Assembly (NCBI GenBank): GCA_003169695.1
Contig: PNAS01000026.1
Coordinates: 1-64,000 of the forward strand
Direction: 5' to 3'
DNA from: Spartobacteria bacterium
GTDB taxonomy: Bacteria > Verrucomicrobiota > Verrucomicrobiia > Chthoniobacterales > UBA10450
Length of the DNA: 64,000 bases
The translations under genes and the position numbers were made by a program. Shown here piece by piece: positions 32,044 through 43,909 of this stretch (positions are counted from its first letter, which is position 1; each line of letters opens with the position of its first letter). Below the pieces are notes generated by a model. That model was not told the DNA's origin. It worked only from the letters and a program-made list of their open reading frames with translations, and searched no databases.

Positions 32044-32297
32044 TCAACGAAAGGGTAGCTCTTTCGGAACGAAGATGCGGTTTTCGAGGCCGCGTTCGGG
32101 GAGTGGAATTACTAGGTTAGGACCGGTTTCGGCCGCCGCAGATCTAAGGCGAAGTTGGTGTTCCACTTTTTGAGTACGGCAGCGTGAGAAATGGCTAGCC
32201 TTTCAATCAGTGATGGCGGAATCGACGGTTGTGCGGGAATTAGATGATCGTCGGAAGTGCGCACGGTCGAAGGAATCCCCAGTTTCTGGGTGTTCAT
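32044..32297 (-). pseudogene. small hypothetical gene with a frameshift
   Basis: One frame (32112-32297) reads MNTQKLGIPSTVRTSDDHL and on to LRRPKPVLT. At its end the next frame continues as PNLVIPLPERGLENRIFV, then PKELPFR, to a stop at 32044. Both pieces look like protein, so a single-base indel near 32115 probably split a protein of about 85 residues. The family is unrecognised. It lies beside IS debris in the accessory island. Confidence 0.45.
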
Positions 32298-32383
32298 GCT
32301 TATCTGTTGGAGCATTAAGCGTGCGGCAATATCAGGTATTATTACGTAATGTTTGATGTGGCGGTGCTCAAATTACCATGCCG

Positions 32384-32423
32384 AATCAGACCCAACACCA
32401 GTTGCCAGGTGTAGGGTCTGATT
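32384..32423. repeat. head-to-head IS1-family ends separated by 8 bp
   Basis: A right-end sequence AATCAGACCCAACACC (32384-32399) is followed by 8 bases and a left-end sequence GGTGTAGGGTCTGATT (32408-32423). The two are inverted copies differing at one base, and each matches the ends of the 3.6 kb element at 37591/41201 with one or two changes. IS1-family circles join their ends across about 6-9 bp, so this resembles such a junction. Confidence 0.7.
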
Positions 32424-33355
32424 GGGTTATGGACCCGGTAAGGTTTGTGGTGGTGGCAATTCGAAACGCAGTCCGGCCAGCGACTTGCGTCATAACCGTG
32501 TTAGCGGCGATCAGTCAGTTAGGTTCCACGAATCGAAACGAGCGCATCAAATCGCGTCCAAAATTATGTCGCGGCCATTCTCTTTGGGGCCGATTCGATA
32601 TATTTCACTGTCCTCCAAGCCGTAGAGCGGTCCGGTTCAGATCGCGACTGACAGTCCCCGCCCTTATCCGTTCCACATCCGTTCGCATTTCGGATACGGG
32701 GTTAACAGCTAAGGAACCGAAACACAGGTATTCGGCGAGCCGCAATCTGCCCGATGGCATGCTGGCACGTCTTGGACGCAACGAAGGCGTCCGAAAGATG
32801 GTGACAGCGGAGCGCGAAGCGGTGGTCGGCTCGCCAGATTTAGAAAGCCTTACCACGAGCCACATCGAGCGGGGGATTCTTGACCGTTCGGCCGGAATTG
32901 AAGCGGTATCAGCGCAAGGGCTGGGCTACGGCAAAGACCTCAAGACGCACAAGCTGGCCGTCGCGCAGCATTTCGGTGTTACAATTTCGTTCGCAAACAC
33001 GCCACGCTCGGAACGACGCCAGCCGTAGCCGTGGGCCTTGAAGAAAAACCATGGAATTTAGAACGCGTTGTGGACTCGACATCCGAATACTCACGGAGAA
33101 AAGAGGACGCGAGGTTCGAAGAAGCCTTTGCGGAACTGGATGCGAAAGCCCGAGCATATAATCAGATCGACGAAGAAGGCGACTAAGAACGCTCTCAAGC
33201 GAGCCGCCGAAATGAGGGCCAACACCAAGCGCAAGGTTGACGAGACGCAGCAAGTAATCGCCGATAGCAAAGCGTTGCTAAAGCGGATTAACCGCACGCG
33301 CAAGGGCCGTTCTGTGAGGTAGATATGAAAACCGTAATCAATCAGAGGCAACACC
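32408..33355 (+). mobile_element. degraded IS1-family element (copy 2)
   Basis: The left end is GGTGTAGGGTCTGATT at 32408 and the right end AATCAGAGGCAACACC at 33340-33355. Inside, 32620-33189 aligns with the C-terminal two-thirds of the intact transposase at 40279-41181: LPDGMLARLGRNEGVRKM, AEREAVVGSPDLESLTTSHIE, and GLGYGKDLKTHKLAV. Frameshifts follow, then SRRKEDARFEEAFAELD. The N-terminal transposase half, including the first catalytic Asp, is replaced by unrelated or degenerate sequence. It cannot move by itself. Confidence 0.8.
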
Positions 33356-33465
33356 TAGCAACTTTATATGACATGCGGGTTCCACCACCTCAGCGTTTGA
33401 CCTTTAACGTGACCGCACGAAGTCAGTCGTAACCGACGGTCGAAACAAAGCCCTCAATGCGCAGG

Positions 33466-34987: not shown

Positions 34988-35018
34988 ATTTTATATGGCA
35001 TATATCAATCGTGATTTT
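34988..35018. repeat. dispersed AT-rich motif, copy 28 bases before the 35.0 kb gene
   Basis: The copy reads TTATATGGCATATATCAATC then GTGATTTT. It ends about 28 bases before the ATG at 35046 and is followed by the purine-rich GCGGAGGGG. The distance fits an operator or core promoter. Confidence 0.45.
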
Positions 35019-35045
35019 GCGGAGGGGTGATAAGTTGCAGCTCGA

Positions 35046-36348: not shown

Positions 36349-36870
36349 ATGGAATCCGCAACCGAATATCAACTCAAGCTTCTCCACTGGCAGTTCTTTG
36401 GAACTGTCACGTGGTCTGCTTCAACGCTTGGCGGCGTTCACAGTCGGGAAACCGATTTGTGGGAGTTTTTCCGCAATTGGGCTATTCGCGAGAATAGCAA
36501 GCTGGCACAGTTGCCAATTGCGATTCGGTGGGAACGGGGCGAAGTCGGCGGACGGCCGCACGCTCACTTCCTGATGGCGGGACTTCCGACACGGTCCGTG
36601 TCCGAAAACAGCAAATGGCGGCAGCAACGCCTTTGGGAAGTCAATGGGATAGCTCGCATTCGTTTATACGACCCGTTCGAGGAACAGGGAGATGCAATGA
36701 ACTACCTATGCAAGAAGTCTGAACATGCCCGACGGCATGTCAGCAACGCGAACAAATACGAGTTAATGAAATACTCGCACGCCGACCGGCTCGTGATTAA
36801 TCGGGCCGCGTGTGATAGGATGCTTCGCGCTTCAGGGGCGGAAAATGTTCCGCAACTTCCGACCGCCTAG
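36349..36870 (+). CDS. HUH endonuclease (Rep-like, rolling-circle initiator fold)
   Basis: This 173-residue protein has the three Rep motifs in order. Motif I is a strand WQFFGTVTW (residues 14-22). Motif II is GGRPHAHFLMAGL with H71-x-H73, which coordinates the metal. Motif III is AMNYLCKK with candidate nucleophile Y119 and K122. Family knowledge: such proteins nick one strand and stay covalently attached through the Tyr, starting rolling-circle replication or single-strand transposition. It is short, lacking a helicase domain, like small plasmid or microvirus-type initiators. It lies beside a strong promoter and two hairpins, and 0.7 kb from an IS1-family element. A ribosome site before ATG 36349 is weak. 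Confidence 0.72.
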   Translation: MESATEYQLKLLHWQFFGTVTWSASTLGGVHSRETDLWEFFRNWAIRENSKLAQLPIAIRWERGEVGGRPHAHFLMAGLPTRSVSENSKWRQQRLWEVNGIARIRLYDPFEEQGDAMNYLCKKSEHARRHVSNANKYELMKYSHADRLVINRAACDRMLRASGAENVPQLPTA

Positions 36871-36942: not shown

Positions 36943-37374
36943 TTATGCCGAAATTCGAACGATATTCGACTGTTTCTTCGAGGCATGCTTAGCCTTGGGT
37001 TTCTGATCGACGGTGGACTGCTTGGCAAAGGAACGTTGCCCCTCACGGTGAAGATGCAGGAGGACGCGCAGATCTTGCTCAATGCGCCAGACACGATCAA
37101 TGGCGCTTTGCAGCGGTGAACGGGTGTCGGGAGTCGCGGGGATCCGCAGTATCATTTCCCGCATGCCGGCTAATTCTTTCAGGAGATGCTCCGAATCGTA
37201 TAGCCATACATCAGGCAGATTGGCGTCGATCGGGAGTTGGGCCTCGCGTCGCGTTTGGGCGAGCTCAGCGCGAATCTGCGACCAGAGCGCTTTCTCTTCG
37301 GGCGTTTGCCCTTCAAGCTTAGCTTTCTCCTTCTCTCGGTGCCACAGCCGGGCACCCACGGATTTTTGGTTCAT
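36943..37374 (-). CDS. hypothetical protein with palindromic operators upstream
   Basis: This 143-residue basic, mostly helical protein starts MNQKSVGARLWHREKEKAKL and ends in a Lys-rich tail (KPKAKHASKKQSN). A middle region (LLKELAGMREMILRIP) is coiled-coil-like. There are no catalytic motifs and no recognised family. Three stacked palindromes lie 120-180 bases upstream of its start and one overlaps a minus-strand TTGACA, so it is probably tightly regulated. It lies just left of the 3.6 kb element. Confidence 0.65.
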   Translation of the reverse strand: MNQKSVGARLWHREKEKAKLEGQTPEEKALWSQIRAELAQTRREAQLPIDANLPDVWLYDSEHLLKELAGMREMILRIPATPDTRSPLQSAIDRVWRIEQDLRVLLHLHREGQRSFAKQSTVDQKPKAKHASKKQSNIVRISA

Positions 37375-37554: not shown

Positions 37555-37787
37555 ACGCCGAAGTTTGCACCCATCTCCCAGTATTACATTGGTGTTGGGT
37601 CCGATTGGGCGGCCCTCAGTTCCAATGACTTGCGTAAGGAGGCCCGATGAGGCCCTTTACACATCTCGCTGCCAGAAAACGCGCTAGCCGGTCAACTGCT
37701 AAACCGCCATGCTATTTCGGCACCCGCTGGGCACATGTGGATTCACCCCCGCGCAGCCTGTCTGGAGTTAAACTAGAAGGAACGAAA

Positions 37788-38600
37788 TTGTCGCGGCACA
37801 TCTATTTAGACGAAAGCGGCATCTCCCAAGACAGGAAAATTCTAGTCGTCGGCGGGGTAATCATCGACCCCGACCGCGAATTTACAGCTCTGGAGCAATA
37901 CTTGGATGCTCTCGCCAAGGTTTACGTGCCGTCAGAGCGTTACTTCCCCGGCTTTCCGCTCCACACGAAGGATTTGTTTCACGGAACTGATGTTTGGGAC
38001 AAGCGGACGTATCCCCGAGAAAAATCAATCGAACTCCTCAGGGAGCTGGTTGGACTTCCAGCGAAGATCGGATTGCCGGTGGTCTGGGGATACATCAAGA
38101 CCCCTGAATTTAAATCTACCAATCCTGACCGGAAACAGCACATGCACACGGCCCTTAATCACGGCTTGGCATTTTCGCTTTGTTTGGTGGCGGCGGAACA
38201 GTTCATGCGCAATTACGTCGATCCAAAAGAATACGCTTGGCTGTTCGTCGAGAAAAATCACTCGGAGAAGGTATTGGAAATAGCGTTTCGGTCGCTCCGA
38301 GGGCAATACGGCTCCGATGAATTGTTGACGGTGCCTGGGGCTGTCGAATACCTGCCGCTCAAGCGAATAAGAGAATCGGCGGGTATGATCGCGAAGCGAG
38401 ATTCCATTGTGCTGCAACTGGCTGATATGTGCGTGTTCATCCTCCGATCTTTCTTGGAGAGTCGAAAAGGTTGCGAAGAACTCTTTGAAATCTTTTCCAG
38501 AAACACCGCAGCTAGACTGCCGAAGACCGGGCCGGATGATATTGCTGGCTTCCACTCGATGTGTTTTACGGACCCGTTACCGAAGGGAGTGCAGTCTTAG
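37788..38600 (+). CDS. DUF3800 domain protein, element passenger
   Basis: This 270-residue protein starts at a TTG at 37788 preceded by a good AGAAGGA site; longer upstream starts would put non-conserved sequence first. The N-terminal HIYLDESG (Asp-Glu pair), the central EKNHSEKVLEIAF and a C-terminal LQLADMCVFI are DUF3800 hallmarks. The family is thought to have an RNase H-like fold and is often carried by phages and defence islands; its biochemical role is unsettled. It is followed after 12 bases by a small gene with a strong ribosome site, so the two may form an operon. Confidence 0.82.
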   Translation: MSRHIYLDESGISQDRKILVVGGVIIDPDREFTALEQYLDALAKVYVPSERYFPGFPLHTKDLFHGTDVWDKRTYPREKSIELLRELVGLPAKIGLPVVWGYIKTPEFKSTNPDRKQHMHTALNHGLAFSLCLVAAEQFMRNYVDPKEYAWLFVEKNHSEKVLEIAFRSLRGQYGSDELLTVPGAVEYLPLKRIRESAGMIAKRDSIVLQLADMCVFILRSFLESRKGCEELFEIFSRNTAARLPKTGPDDIAGFHSMCFTDPLPKGVQS

Positions 38601-38612
38601 GAGGACGAGTCC

Positions 38613-38822
38613 GTGAAGCTTGATTTCAAAGCTCTTGAGCAACTTTACGGCGAGGCCCTAATTGCTGGACATGGCAAGCATGAGCGCATCAAAAAACTCA
38701 GTCCGGCTCAGTTGCGCGATCTGATTGATTTTAACGCTCGCGGGAAATTTCACAGGAAGACTAGACAGCTCCAAAACGTTGGGGTGCGAAAGCGAAAACC
38801 GAAGCGCGAAAGTGCGCATTAG
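38613..38822 (+). CDS. small basic protein downstream of DUF3800
   Basis: This 69-residue protein starts at a GTG behind an AGGAGG site that overlaps the DUF3800 stop. The N-terminal half is helical (LDFKALEQLYGEALIAGHG), and the end is very basic (HRKTRQLQ...RKRKPKRES). It overlaps the 3' end of a minus-strand gene by 165 bases. Its ribosome site and spacing favour it being real, but one of the two may be a shadow. The family is unknown. Confidence 0.55.
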   Translation: MKLDFKALEQLYGEALIAGHGKHERIKKLSPAQLRDLIDFNARGKFHRKTRQLQNVGVRKRKPKRESAH

Positions 38823-39206
38823 CGGAGTCATGACGTGATACAAATCTTCAAACATGTAAATGGCGTCGATTATGTATATCTCCGCGATCATGGGGGCATA
38901 GATCAGCACGCGGTCCGGGTCCCTATTGGCGTGCTTGAAAAAATTTTGCGCGCCCAACGCTCGTTTTTGGAAGGATGCCGGTTGCGACTTCAACCAGGTA
39001 ACGGTTTTCGACGGCTTACCTGCCTTTGCTCCTATGTGATGAAGGAGCGTCTGTGCGGCGACTATCAGCGTGTGAACCGAAGCAAAATCTTCTTGAAGAA
39101 ACCAAAGCAAAATAGCGCCTTCAAGTTGACCTCTGGCGGCGGCCTCGCGTGTAATTCTTACGAGCCCCCCTTTTGGCAACGGCTTCTCTGGATTAGACGC
39201 GCTCAA
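38658..39206 (-). CDS. hypothetical protein, element passenger
   Basis: This 182-residue protein starts at a TTG (39206) with AGGAATT upstream. It is helical and looks folded: LVRITREAAARGQLEGAILLWF, EDFASVHTLIVAAQTLLHHIG, and FFKHANRDPDRVLIYAP. I associate the AAARxQLExAI...WF...SVHTL pattern with a conserved family of unknown function that occurs in soil bacteria. No motif tells its activity. Its 3' end overlaps the small basic gene on the other strand by 165 bases. Confidence 0.7.
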   Translation of the reverse strand: MSASNPEKPLPKGGLVRITREAAARGQLEGAILLWFLQEDFASVHTLIVAAQTLLHHIGAKAGKPSKTVTWLKSQPASFQKRALGAQNFFKHANRDPDRVLIYAPMIAEIYIIDAIYMFEDLYHVMTPLMRTFALRFSLSHPNVLELSSLPVKFPASVKINQIAQLSRTEFFDALMLAMSSN

Positions 39207-39233
39207 GGGAGGGAATTCCTATCTTCAGTAACG

Positions 39234-39428
39234 CTAATGGGAGAAGTGTCCGTATATGATCAGTGCAGCGCAGCCAAGCGACGTGACTACGAATGCCGTA
39301 ATGGTCTCCACTCTGTCCAGCCGTCTTCCGATGATCCTACAAAATAGCATTACGATTCCTGTGAGCGCCGCACCCACTAAGCAGGGAGCTAAGATGGTCC
39401 CTATTGCGTGTCCTATCACGTTTTCCAT
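39234..39428 (-). CDS. small two-helix membrane protein
   Basis: This 64-residue protein has two hydrophobic helices (AIGTILAPCLVGAALTGIVML and ITAFVVTSLGCAALIIY) joined by a basic loop CRIIGRRLDRVE. It resembles small holin-like or accessory membrane proteins in form only. It lies between the 182-residue gene and the coiled-coil gene on the same strand, suggesting a minus-strand operon in the element. Confidence 0.55.
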   Translation of the reverse strand: MENVIGHAIGTILAPCLVGAALTGIVMLFCRIIGRRLDRVETITAFVVTSLGCAALIIYGHFSH

Positions 39429-39461
39429 ATAACTTTATCTATGCTAGCAATGTTCCACTTG

Positions 39462-39839
39462 TTAGAATCCCGGTGGCCTACCAACGCGGTTTCCTTGCTC
39501 CGCACTGGAGGAAAAACCTTCTCCTTTTGCGTAGTCCGTAGCCTTCTGGAAACGCGCTATCTCTGCCGCATGTTCGTTCTTCAACTGCGTTATCGCATCC
39601 GCCTGCTCTTGCTTGAGTCGCGCAGTTTGGGATTCAAGCTTCGCATTGGCTTGCTCAAGCGCGAAACACTTGCGACCAGATTCCGTCGATTCTTTTTCGG
39701 CTGCGAAGTATGCCGCCTGCAACGTTTGAAAGAGAGTCTGAATCTCCAAAACGATTGCCGCAGTCTTGGCGTCTTTAACCCTCGCAATGAGCTTGGTTAT
39801 GAGAGCAGCGATTTGCGGAATAACTTCGAGGCCGGTCAT
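39462..39839 (-). CDS. coiled-coil hypothetical protein
   Basis: This 125-residue protein starts with a helical TGLEVIPQIAALITKLIARVKDAK segment and continues as a long Gln/Glu/Ala coiled coil (LEQANAKLESQTARLKQEQADAI). There is no membrane helix. The family is unknown. Phage tail and mobile-element proteins often look like this. It is probably the first or second gene of the minus-strand set. Confidence 0.55.
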   Translation of the reverse strand: MTGLEVIPQIAALITKLIARVKDAKTAAIVLEIQTLFQTLQAAYFAAEKESTESGRKCFALEQANAKLESQTARLKQEQADAITQLKNEHAAEIARFQKATDYAKGEGFSSSAEQGNRVGRPPGF

Positions 39840-39905
39840 GGGGATAACGATGCTCTGTAATATGCGGCACTTGCGCAGACTCGATATATCAGCATCTTTA
39901 GGGCC

Positions 39906-40058
39906 GTGGAAGAGCTTGACGAGAGCCAGGAAGCGGTGCGCAACGTTGAACGGATTACGGATTCCGAGCCGGTTAACGGCGAGGACCTTGTTGAATCCGA
40001 GGACCTCAAGCGCCAGTTCCGCGAGGCCAAAGAGCGCCTTAAATCCGAGTTACCCTAG
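39906..40058 (+). CDS. possible small acidic protein or gene remnant
   Basis: A plus-strand frame from a GTG at 39906 encodes 50 residues (VEELDESQEAVRNVERITD, then GEDLVESEDLKRQFREAKERL). It is acidic, helical and looks like protein in contrast to the antisense frame. Upstream it stays open to about 39866 (ALAQTRYISIFRAVEE), so it may be a truncated 3' end. It overlaps the 40050-40235 stop by a few bases. Confidence 0.4.
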   Translation: MEELDESQEAVRNVERITDSEPVNGEDLVESEDLKRQFREAKERLKSELP

Positions 40059-40235
40059 CGACTCCGCTAGCAGCCGGTCGAGCAGTCTGGAAAGATTCGG
40101 GTCCCGTTTCTTCGACCGCTTCACGTTCTTTTCCGTGAGCGTGACGGAATACCCCTTTTTCCCTTCCGGCTTCCGGCCAGCGCCTTTCCGTTTCCCGCCT
40201 CGCTTTGAAATAATATCACGTTTTCGTATTGACAT
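40050..40235 (-). CDS. small basic DNA-binding-like protein divergent from the transposase
   Basis: This 61-residue protein has a very basic N-terminal arm (SIRKRDIISKRGGKRKGAG) with the GAGRKPEGKK motif seen before ribbon-helix-helix domains, then YSVTLTEKNVKRSKK and NLSRLLDRLLAESL that would supply the strand and helices. It begins 44 bases from the transposase start, on the other strand. Between them lies an AT-rich gap with two ATATCATT direct repeats, possible operators. A role as a repressor of the transposase is inferred. Confidence 0.6.
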   Translation of the reverse strand: MSIRKRDIISKRGGKRKGAGRKPEGKKGYSVTLTEKNVKRSKKRDPNLSRLLDRLLAESLG

Positions 40236-40278
40236 ATCATTGATAATATATCATTCTTTCAATCAAGCAAGAAAGAAT

Positions 40279-41181
40279 ATGGCAAACAAAAGACTCTCGA
40301 AAGAAAAGCAGACTTTAGTCCTGATGGCGCTCTGTGAAGGGATGCCAATACGGGCTTGCGCCCGCATGTATAAAGTCGGCAAGAACGCGATTCATCGCCT
40401 GATTTGCGAAACAGGGGAAGCGTTCGCCGATTACATGGACAAGGAACTGCGCGATCTTCCTTGCCTGCGAATCGAGCTTGATGAGCAATGGCAGTATGTA
40501 GGCTGTCACGCTGGCCGGATGGTAAAGAAAGAAGCAGGGCGCGGCGATTTCTGGCTATGGGCTTGCATCGACGCGGACACGAAACTGATTTTGTCGCATC
40601 GGGTCGGCAAGCGCGACTGGTCAACGGGGTATGCGTTTGTCGGCGACGTTCGCAAGCGCGTGAGCGGTCCCGTCCAGATCGCGACAGACCAGTTGCCCGC
40701 ATACGCTGGACATATCCGAATGCATTTCGGGTATGAGGGCTACAGCTACGGCACAGAGACAAAGACATTCGGCGAGCCGCACCTACCGGACGGCACACTG
40801 GCGCGTCTTGGACACAATGAGGGTGTCCGCAAGATGCAGACAGCGGAGCGTGAAGCGGTAGTAGGCTCGCCGGACTTAGAAACCCTCACGACTTCGCACA
40901 TTGAACGGGCATTCTTGACTGTGCGGCAGGAATTGAAGCGTTTCCAGCGCAAGGGACTCGGCTACAGCAAAGACCTCGAAACGCACAAGCGAGCGGTCGC
41001 GCTGTTTCTTGGCGTTTACAATTTCGTTCGTAAACATCACAGCCTCGGCACAACGCCAGCGGTCGCGGCGGGATTGGAAGAAAAGGCGTGGGGCTTAGAA
41101 CACGTTGTGGACATGACAGCGGCCTATTTTGAGCGCAAAAAGGCTAACGCTGAGACAGTTGCAACCGCAGGGAACCTCTAA
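40279..41181 (+). CDS. IS1-family transposase (single-ORF InsAB-like)
   Basis: This 300-residue DDE recombinase reads without frameshift. The N-terminal 60 residues form an HTH region (IRACARMYKVGKNAIHRL). The catalytic set is D68 in ELDEQWQYVG, D137 in IATDQLPAY and E209 in TSHIERAF, the arrangement seen in IS1 InsB. KHHSLGTTPAVAAG is a typical C-terminal motif. The ATG follows GAAAGAAT. It is the intact version of which copies 1 and 2 at 29.5 and 32.4 kb are remnants, and it is probably the only active transposase in the window. Confidence 0.9.
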   Translation: MANKRLSKEKQTLVLMALCEGMPIRACARMYKVGKNAIHRLICETGEAFADYMDKELRDLPCLRIELDEQWQYVGCHAGRMVKKEAGRGDFWLWACIDADTKLILSHRVGKRDWSTGYAFVGDVRKRVSGPVQIATDQLPAYAGHIRMHFGYEGYSYGTETKTFGEPHLPDGTLARLGHNEGVRKMQTAEREAVVGSPDLETLTTSHIERAFLTVRQELKRFQRKGLGYSKDLETHKRAVALFLGVYNFVRKHHSLGTTPAVAAGLEEKAWGLEHVVDMTAAYFERKKANAETVATAGNL

Positions 41182-41205
41182 AATGAATCGGACCCAACAC
41201 CTATA

Positions 41206-41225
41206 AACTTTATATGACATATATT
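41206..41225. repeat. sequence shared by the right flanks of two IS1 copies
   Basis: After the right end at 41201 the flank reads TATA then AACTTTATATGACATATATT. After the copy 2 right end at 33355 it reads TAGC then AACTTTATATGACAT. This may be extra terminal sequence of the element or a preferred target repeat. Confidence 0.5.
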
Positions 41226-41407
41226 GTATGATGTTATTGAGGCCCACGGGCGAGCGCCCTGGCGAAGAGATAAGCCAGTCATCACTCGTTTTTGCGATGG
41301 CATTGTCCAAACTTCATTCACAGCCTTGGACCGCCGCTTCCCGCCCGCGGCGCCTTTACCTCTCTCCGGTCTGGCACCAAGGCTGCTAAGCTGATTGACA
41401 TCTACGA

Positions 41408-43681: not shown

Positions 43682-43816
43682 GGCAGGGCCGGGCCAGGAT
43701 GAAAGCGAAGGATCACGGAACGGGATGGTTTTCGCTTATGTTCCGTCAGTGTCAACTTGCGAAAGCGTTCGGAATAAACTGCGGGTTGCATGAGAGGCGG
43801 TTTCCAAAAATAAATT

Positions 43817-43883
43817 TGTAGGGCGTTTCTGTGAAACGCCAATCGACCGGGATTAGGAAGGCGTCTGACACAGACGCCCTACA
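43817..43883. repeat. 67-bp dispersed inverted repeat (family A, copy 1)
   Basis: The ends TGTAGGGCGT and ACGCCCTACA are inverse, and an inner GTTTCTGTGAAAC / GTCTGACACAGAC pair makes further palindromes. It is nearly identical to the copy at 55730-55796. It lies between threonine synthase and aspartate kinase. Confidence 0.85.
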
Positions 43884-43909
43884 ATGGCGGAAAGGAATTC
43901 AAGACGCTC

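Follow-up and report, generated by a model that had tools for sequence, protein, structure and literature searches.

A cargo-carrying element of an IS1 lineage that probably prefers insertion beside the predicted dif site in Verrucomicrobiota

The element and its surroundings

The window analysed here is a stretch of 64,000 nucleotides from a Spartobacteria bacterium (assembly GCA_003169695.1, contig PNAS01000026.1, positions 1 to 64,000). It contains an insertion sequence (IS) element of an IS1 lineage, in which a transposase gene, a small basic accessory gene and passenger genes, one of the DUF3800 type, lie between perfect terminal inverted repeats; its right end stops just short of a site predicted to be the chromosomal dif (Table 1). 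We consider it highly probable that the block is a single transposable unit, from an IS1 lineage that carries passengers and prefers to insert beside dif.

Table 1. Features of the element, its flanks and its decayed neighbour (window coordinates)
Feature	Position	Strand	Basis or remark
IS1-family cargo-carrying element	37591-41201	+	3611 bp; 16-bp terminal inverted repeats, and relatives' ends and duplications
Left-hand 8 bp ATTACATT	37583-37590	+	Unlike right copy; last three bases are the commonest dif edge
Left terminal inverted repeat GGTGTTGGGTCCGATT	37591-37606	+	Perfect 16 bp
DUF3800 passenger gene	37647-38600	+	PF12686, 28.3 bits (cut-off 21); start may be internal
182-aa passenger	38658-39206	-	Homologues in G026, G022, G008, G039 and G067 loci
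Small ORF, 64 aa, possibly membrane	39234-39428	-	Pfam match below cut-off
125-aa coiled-coil-like ORF	39462-39839	-	Open reading frame
50-aa ORF	39906-40058	+	Ten related loci have matches (43-77% identical, a short one 89%)
61-aa basic protein, conserved accessory gene	40050-40235	-	Divergent from transposase; tentatively ribbon-helix-helix-like
IS1-type transposase, 300 aa	40279-41181	+	Open frame; PF03400; conserved D68, D137, E209, R216
Right terminal inverted repeat GGTGTTGGGTCCGATT	41186-41201	-	Identical to left; stops 5 bp short of dif
Right-hand 8 bp TATAAACT	41202-41209	+	5-bp spacer plus three outermost dif bases
Predicted chromosomal dif, 28 bp	41207-41234	+	Family pattern, profile scores, octamer polarity
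Decayed 948-bp relative, imperfect ends	32408-33355	+	Another element end 8 bp to left, 32384-32399
Relic half dif site	33361-33374	+	Beside decayed 948-bp copy

An earlier note on this DNA had described exact inverted repeats at both ends, and the two 16-bp ends are indeed identical. The pair was the top inverted repeat listed for 36.5-42.5 kb, and with flanking bases it extends to 19 nt at 95% complementarity. With up to three mismatches allowed, the window holds five matches to the end, compared to 0.45 expected; the three that remain beside the pair (32384, 32408 and 33340) are parts of older relics. The ends of IS1 elements have the form GGnnnTG, which fits the window copy (GGTGTTG) and most loci of a more distant IS1 lineage (GGTAGTG), L110 being among the relatives that deviate (G, C and L numbers are our own handles). 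An end match on contig C61 was dismissed as chance, because it sits within an open reading frame (ORF) of 1009 amino acids (aa) that resembles alanyl-tRNA synthetase (named by eye).

The intact IS1-type transposase placed by the earlier note at the right end is an open frame that scores 44.7 bits with PF03400 (DDE_Tnp_IS1), above the cut-off of 24.1, and 66.6 bits with the NCBIfam equivalog transpos_IS1, below the cut-off of 100. On these scores it is a relative of the classical IS1 group, and no close member of it. D68, D137 and E209, together with R216, are invariant in an alignment of six diverse rows. In a tree of 19 transposases, the ten of the window lineage (those sited at dif, plus G000:C9, G007 and the second G039 copy) were set apart from the others by a branch supported at 100/99; long branches were flagged by the tree program. 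The AlphaFold model of the transposase was too poor for use (mean pLDDT, the predicted local distance difference test, 44.2).

Related elements and their cargo

A search of 83 genomes of the family, the window's own included, gave transposase matches in 27. The window's own genome holds a second element (G000:C9), 3190 bp long, with a 78% identical transposase, a P63C-domain passenger and a perfect 8-bp duplication, CTTCTTTA. In G072, a 2311-bp element at dif has 16-bp ends identical to those of the window copy and an 8-bp duplication, TAGCGATT; a DUF3800 gene adjoins its left end, and its transposase frame contains one stop. G039 has two elements, one of 2488 bp at dif (duplication ACGCTATT) and one of 4080 bp (duplication AGTCGGAG), and a 1278-bp element at dif in G021 (duplication AGTCTATT) has no transposase inside. 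A metagenome-assembled genome titled Verrucomicrobiales (L110) encodes a 43% identical transposase within a 3169-bp element flanked by the duplication TCTCCGTT; the ends of this element match at 12 of 16 bases, and it stops 5 bp short of a dif-like sequence that has four mismatches. In G103, from another family, a 2356-bp element with a 56% identical transposase ends 5 bp from dif, and its flanking 8-mers agree at six of eight bases. When the L110 transposase was used to search 384 genomes of the class (E up to 1e-30), the lineage (43-46% identity to L110) was found only in genomes already known; the search added a 72% fragment in G114, and its other matches were at 29-36%, the level of the distant lineage.

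These relatives agree with the proposal of the earlier note, a transporter-type IS that moves cargo: their ends are of one kind with those of the window copy (identical in G072, similar in G000:C9, with P63C, and in G039), their target duplications measure 8 bp, and their cargo differs in part. Non-transposition genes between one pair of ends, the criterion for a transporter IS, are present in the relatives; the window copy has them without a duplication. Such cargo might be assumed to be exceptional for IS1, but in these genomes it is not. In the distant lineage (33-39% identity), 9 of 11 loci have ends starting with GG, mostly GGTAGTG, along with 8-bp duplications and lengths of 2637-4171 bp; the remaining two gave no ends. 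These nine loci of 2.6-4.2 kb, together with the cargo-bearing relatives, argue that cargo is common in the IS1-type elements of these genomes. In G022, at 6648-7760 of L059, the cargo of a distant-lineage element includes a gene that combines a helix-turn-helix with an IrrE-type peptidase and matches the PADLOC RmrA models with 190 bits.

Insertion at a fixed distance from one site

The right flanks of the elements in the window, G072, G039, G026 and G065 share one motif. A search for its 26-base form, in which three mismatches at most were allowed, found it in 41 of the 83 genomes at 44 sites (once in 38 genomes, twice in three), compared to none for the reversed pattern. At 17 of the 43 sites with enough flank, an exact ACACC lies 5 bp outside the 28-mer, while the other 299 spacings together account for 8; the same count gave no peak on the opposite side of dif. 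With a looser end (CCAACACC, up to two mismatches), 21 of the 44 sites have an element end at 5 bp. The 8-bp duplication consists of the 5-bp spacer and the three outer dif bases, which read A[CT]T at 41 of the 44 sites, so that an intact dif remains after insertion. Both a left end and a matching duplication (at most one mismatch) were found at six of the 21 end-bearing sites (G021, G027, G039, G060, G062 and G072).

Location was then considered in terms of transposase identity. Seventeen loci are at least 60% identical, and 12 of these have dif within 10 kb; three more sit on contigs other than that with dif, and the last two belong to genomes in which no dif was found. None of the 27 loci at 29-46% identity is near dif, six of these being in genomes without a found dif. 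The count used 49 of 57 match rows, the eight weakest being omitted and neighbouring pieces merged, and rows at 50% and 54% identity were put in neither class. A scan of 213 genomes of the order for ACACC-N5-dif (up to three mismatches) matched 36, eight of them outside the family and five of these eight with an exact ACACC; some of the 36, those with weak ends, are probably bare dif sites.

In G021 the order is an older end, AGTCTATT, the element, AGTCTATT again and dif, that is, two insertions stacked on one another. G062 and G027 retain end-only remnants of 33 bp and 107 bp by dif, with duplication bases agreeing at 8/8 and 7/8. As far as can be read from the compared loci, they show recurrent insertion at a fixed distance that keeps the predicted dif, with 8-bp duplications in several relatives, stacking and exchangeable cargo; from genome to genome, the recurring insertions differ in their duplications and end variants, in what they carry and in the way they point.

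Stacking is hinted at once more at about 13941 of L053, where the 4080-bp G039 element and its 8-bp duplication are followed by another end, GGTGTTGCCTCCG.

Identity of the site

The 28-bp site has 21 of 28 identities to the dif of Bacillus subtilis (0 of 20000 shuffles did as well). It has 14 to 17 of 28 identities to seven Acinetobacter dif sites taken from PMC10132070. In C84 (164 kb) and in G026:C15 (379 kb) it is the top-scoring place with each of three profiles. Octamers of sequence GGGNAGGG point toward it by 15:2, 19:7 and 32:11 in three contigs (66 to 20 in total), and in all three GC skew is positive to its left and negative to its right. The window's own genome encodes a XerD-like (326 bits) and a XerC-like (304 bits) recombinase, both just under the curated cut-offs. 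The window site lies between nadK and lysC, homologues of which flank the site in many other loci compared. The arm nearest the element is tentatively XerD-like (21/28 identities, compared to 18/28 in the other orientation). Within Verrucomicrobia, dif has been predicted in three genomes, according to PMC3025954.

Evidence against targeting of dif, and two rival explanations

Several observations count against a preference for dif, the first group of them concerning the site. Its assignment is a prediction from similarity and position, and 42 of the 83 family genomes gave no match to the pattern. Cumulative GC-skew maxima are 50-167 kb away from it. In C84 its lead is slim with the Acinetobacter profile (9.2 vs 9.1 bits, compared to 16.9 vs 10.6 with the B. 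subtilis profile); in G024 it ranks first with the B. subtilis profile, but is outscored by another place when the Acinetobacter or the mixed profile is used. The site might then be a conserved intergenic element other than dif, such as a terminator or a protein-binding site, targeted as such; the displaced skew maxima and the lead with the Acinetobacter profile, small in C84 and absent in G024, would both fit. We nevertheless find this improbable, given a single copy in 38 of 41 genomes, the agreement with the B. subtilis dif at 21 of 28 bases, the top place in C84 and G026:C15 with both single-source profiles, polar octamers that converge there and the presence of XerC/XerD-like proteins.

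The second group concerns the insertions. No such end is found at 23 of the 44 dif sites. Among the 21 with an end, three have a left end without a matching duplication (window, G005 and G038), and at 12 no left end was found. The window copy has no matching duplication, ATTACATT and TATAAACT differing at four of eight bases. The intact relative G000:C9 lies away from dif, and four more loci are on contigs without a found dif, two of these loci being in genomes that gave none. Orientation is not fixed, since the transposase points away from dif in G038 and G060, and the 61-aa accessory gene was undetected in some dif-adjacent loci, for instance G020, G026 and G038. Almost all the relatives come from draft assemblies, in which contigs are broken. 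A single ancient insertion by dif, inherited and decayed, would turn the recurrence into shared descent rather than targeting; most cases do come from one bacterial family, and the 12 sites where no left end was found also favour it. Such a history is very improbable, however, because the duplications TAGCGATT, ACGCTATT, AGTCTATT and TCTCCGTT are distinct, end subtypes and cargo differ, both orientations occur, relatives have empty sites, and two elements are found stacked.

The window copy, its empty sites and its decayed neighbour

A target duplication at the window copy was rejected, the best reading giving 6 of 9 or 4 of 8 bases. The last three bases of the left flank are ATT, the dif edge seen most often (any A[CT]T would arise by chance about 1 time in 32), which weakly suggests that both ends formerly lay at dif. 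The missing duplication may stem from an adjacent deletion or from recombination between two elements. Homologues of the left neighbour gene (36943-37374) lie 99-338 bp from dif at G065:C164, G055, G036 and G022, which are empty sites without an element end at dif, and just beyond the element in G039 and G072. The comparison of insertion sites that the earlier note had called for thus gave empty sites in four relatives and 8-bp duplications in relatives, but no duplication at the window copy.

Since transposase matches in the 948-bp copy begin only at residue 109, the first third being gone, this copy looks like an internally deleted relic and no minimal IS. It is the only candidate that searches of the window's own genome gave for the case that the earlier note had named as evidence against its reading, a shorter copy that begins on the left at about 40.2 kb. 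One could suppose that only a short IS1 of about 40.2-41.2 kb is mobile, the repeat at 37591 being unrelated and the passengers chromosomal. The missing duplication would agree with this, as would the 948-bp copy were it not seemingly deleted internally. The 16-bp repeat is perfect, however, G072 combines the same ends with a DUF3800 gene and a perfect duplication, and the empty sites have the same left neighbour gene, so that we regard this explanation as hardly tenable. At 32384-32423, two element ends face each other 8 bp apart and form a palindrome; the 8 bp inside it are almost the reverse complement of the 8 bp to the right of the decayed copy, as if the loop had flipped.

Alternatively, the block could have entered dif by Xer recombination, as dif-integrating phages do, with the transposase incidental. 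Such an entry would be compatible with what lies just upstream: relic sequences resembling dif (33361 and 34988) and, at 36349, a possible replication gene of phage type. Yet the dif core is not where the ends are found: they stop 5 bp short of the site and have 8-bp duplications, and an intact relative with an 8-bp duplication is found away from dif; we give this origin scarcely any credence compared to transposition of a single unit.

Other features near the predicted dif were recorded. A second dif-like sequence, at 34988-35021, has nine mismatches to the family dif and another outer arm; nearly the same stretch is present in G022 and G020, with a similar one at 38945 of G024:C25, and it is possibly the attachment site of a Xer-dependent element. 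ORF 36349-36870 matches the REP_ORF2-G2P phage replication family with 22.5 bits, below the cut-off of 27.8, and gave no match in PHROGs; homologues occur left of dif in G055, G039 and G049, and the ORF may be the remnant of a phage integrated at dif. Sequence 32106-32348 is 86% identical to G021 sequence just right of dif, yet lies left of dif in the window, which suggests a rearrangement around the terminus. The nadK alignment ends 126 bp from dif in G032, compared to a distance of 17.6 kb in the window. G065 has two dif contigs (L056 and L183), alike in the right flank over the length compared and with an element end on one only; they may be population variants. A short dispersed repeat at 43816-43886 is also found elsewhere in the window's own genome (L154 and L061) and in G024 (L137 and L146).

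Passenger and accessory genes

The DUF3800 gene reported in the earlier note is supported by a Pfam score above cut-off (Table 1), and is 37% identical to the G072 gene and 35% to the G065 gene. The 182-aa passenger aligns at 29-36% identity with four of its five homologues, and has no family match in Pfam or NCBIfam. Two plus-strand ORFs, 38613-38822 and 38835-39347, overlap it, the latter with a single weak match of its own, in G008. Because the minus-strand ORF has homologues in the loci of five other genomes, it is the better gene model and the two plus-strand ORFs are probably spurious, including the first, which the earlier note had called a small basic gene. The 64-aa ORF has no homologue among the related loci compared, and the 125-aa ORF matched only itself there. 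A defence-system search of five cargo ORFs of the window gave no match.

Relatives of the 61-aa gene are present in eight related loci and in L110, aligned at 49-83% identity. In each case but one they adjoin the gene for the transposase or what remains of it, the exception being G067, whose contig stops there. The earlier note had listed a repressor-like gene: the gene stands, and is conserved, but its fold is only tentatively of the ribbon-helix-helix kind, the score with CcdA (17.7 bits) being under the cut-off of 22.4 and the modest structural model (pLDDT 72.3) having two helices and no predicted strand. As a strict marker of dif targeting the gene was rejected, since it goes undetected at some dif-adjacent loci.

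Possible mechanism and comparison with known systems

The preference could arise if the DDE transposase recognised either dif directly or XerC/XerD bound there, and the small basic accessory protein may share in this recognition. The dif site would then be a harmless landing pad, and the passengers (DUF3800 and the 182-aa protein) would travel as exchangeable modules. A wider scenario is that an IS1 lineage in Verrucomicrobiota evolved dif targeting independently, by way of the Xer complex or of contact with dif, perhaps with the 61-aa protein; that it stacks and swaps cargo, making the replication terminus a cargo platform; and that it represents a second, convergent solution beside the IS1202 family. 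We put this forward tentatively, as a possibility whose chances we rate a little under even.

IS1 is a textbook insertion sequence, usually regarded as loose in target choice, about 0.8-1.2 kb in size and flanked by duplications of 8-9 bp. The window lineage shares with this family a PF03400 match above cut-off, ends that start with GG and, in relatives, the 8-bp duplications. It differs in reaching 2.3-4.2 kb with passengers, in scoring below the NCBIfam equivalog cut-off, and in the dif preference of one lineage. The ISMhu11 subgroup of IS1 consists of longer elements with a single ORF, up to several kb, and going by that description alone it would cover the length seen here; we know of no dif targeting in it. 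Searches of the open-access literature returned nothing on ISMhu11, and nothing that combines the IS1 family, the dif site and XerC; as far as these searches reach, IS1 targeting of dif is absent from print.

Cargo-carrying ISs are a recognised class, the transporter ISs, as described in PMC9330008. The window lineage shares with them the passenger genes inside one pair of ends, and relative to that description there is no difference in principle; it adds a dif-preferring IS1. Insertion at a distance of 5 bp from one arm of dif is also described for ISs of the ISAjo2 type, which belong to the IS1202 family and occur in Acinetobacter (PMC10132070). This type has a Tn7 TnsB-like transposase of 441-457 aa, a length of 1.5 kb, a 5-bp duplication and a fixed orientation, on the XerC side, whereas the window lineage has an IS1-type transposase of 300 aa, passengers, an 8-bp duplication and both orientations, tentatively on the XerD side. 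The traits of the IS1202 dif-hunting group, a large Tn7-like transposase and a duplication of 3-5 bp, are thus not those of the window lineage.

The presence in the same genomes of a dif-preferring lineage and of a sister lineage without this preference makes target selection by IS1-type transposases directly testable. The shared spacing suggests that dif attracts unrelated transposons at an equal distance of 5 bp. A dif-preferring lineage is also in keeping with the variation that these genomes show to the left of the presumed terminus, as seen in the position of nadK, and would represent a new kind of target choice for the IS1 family.

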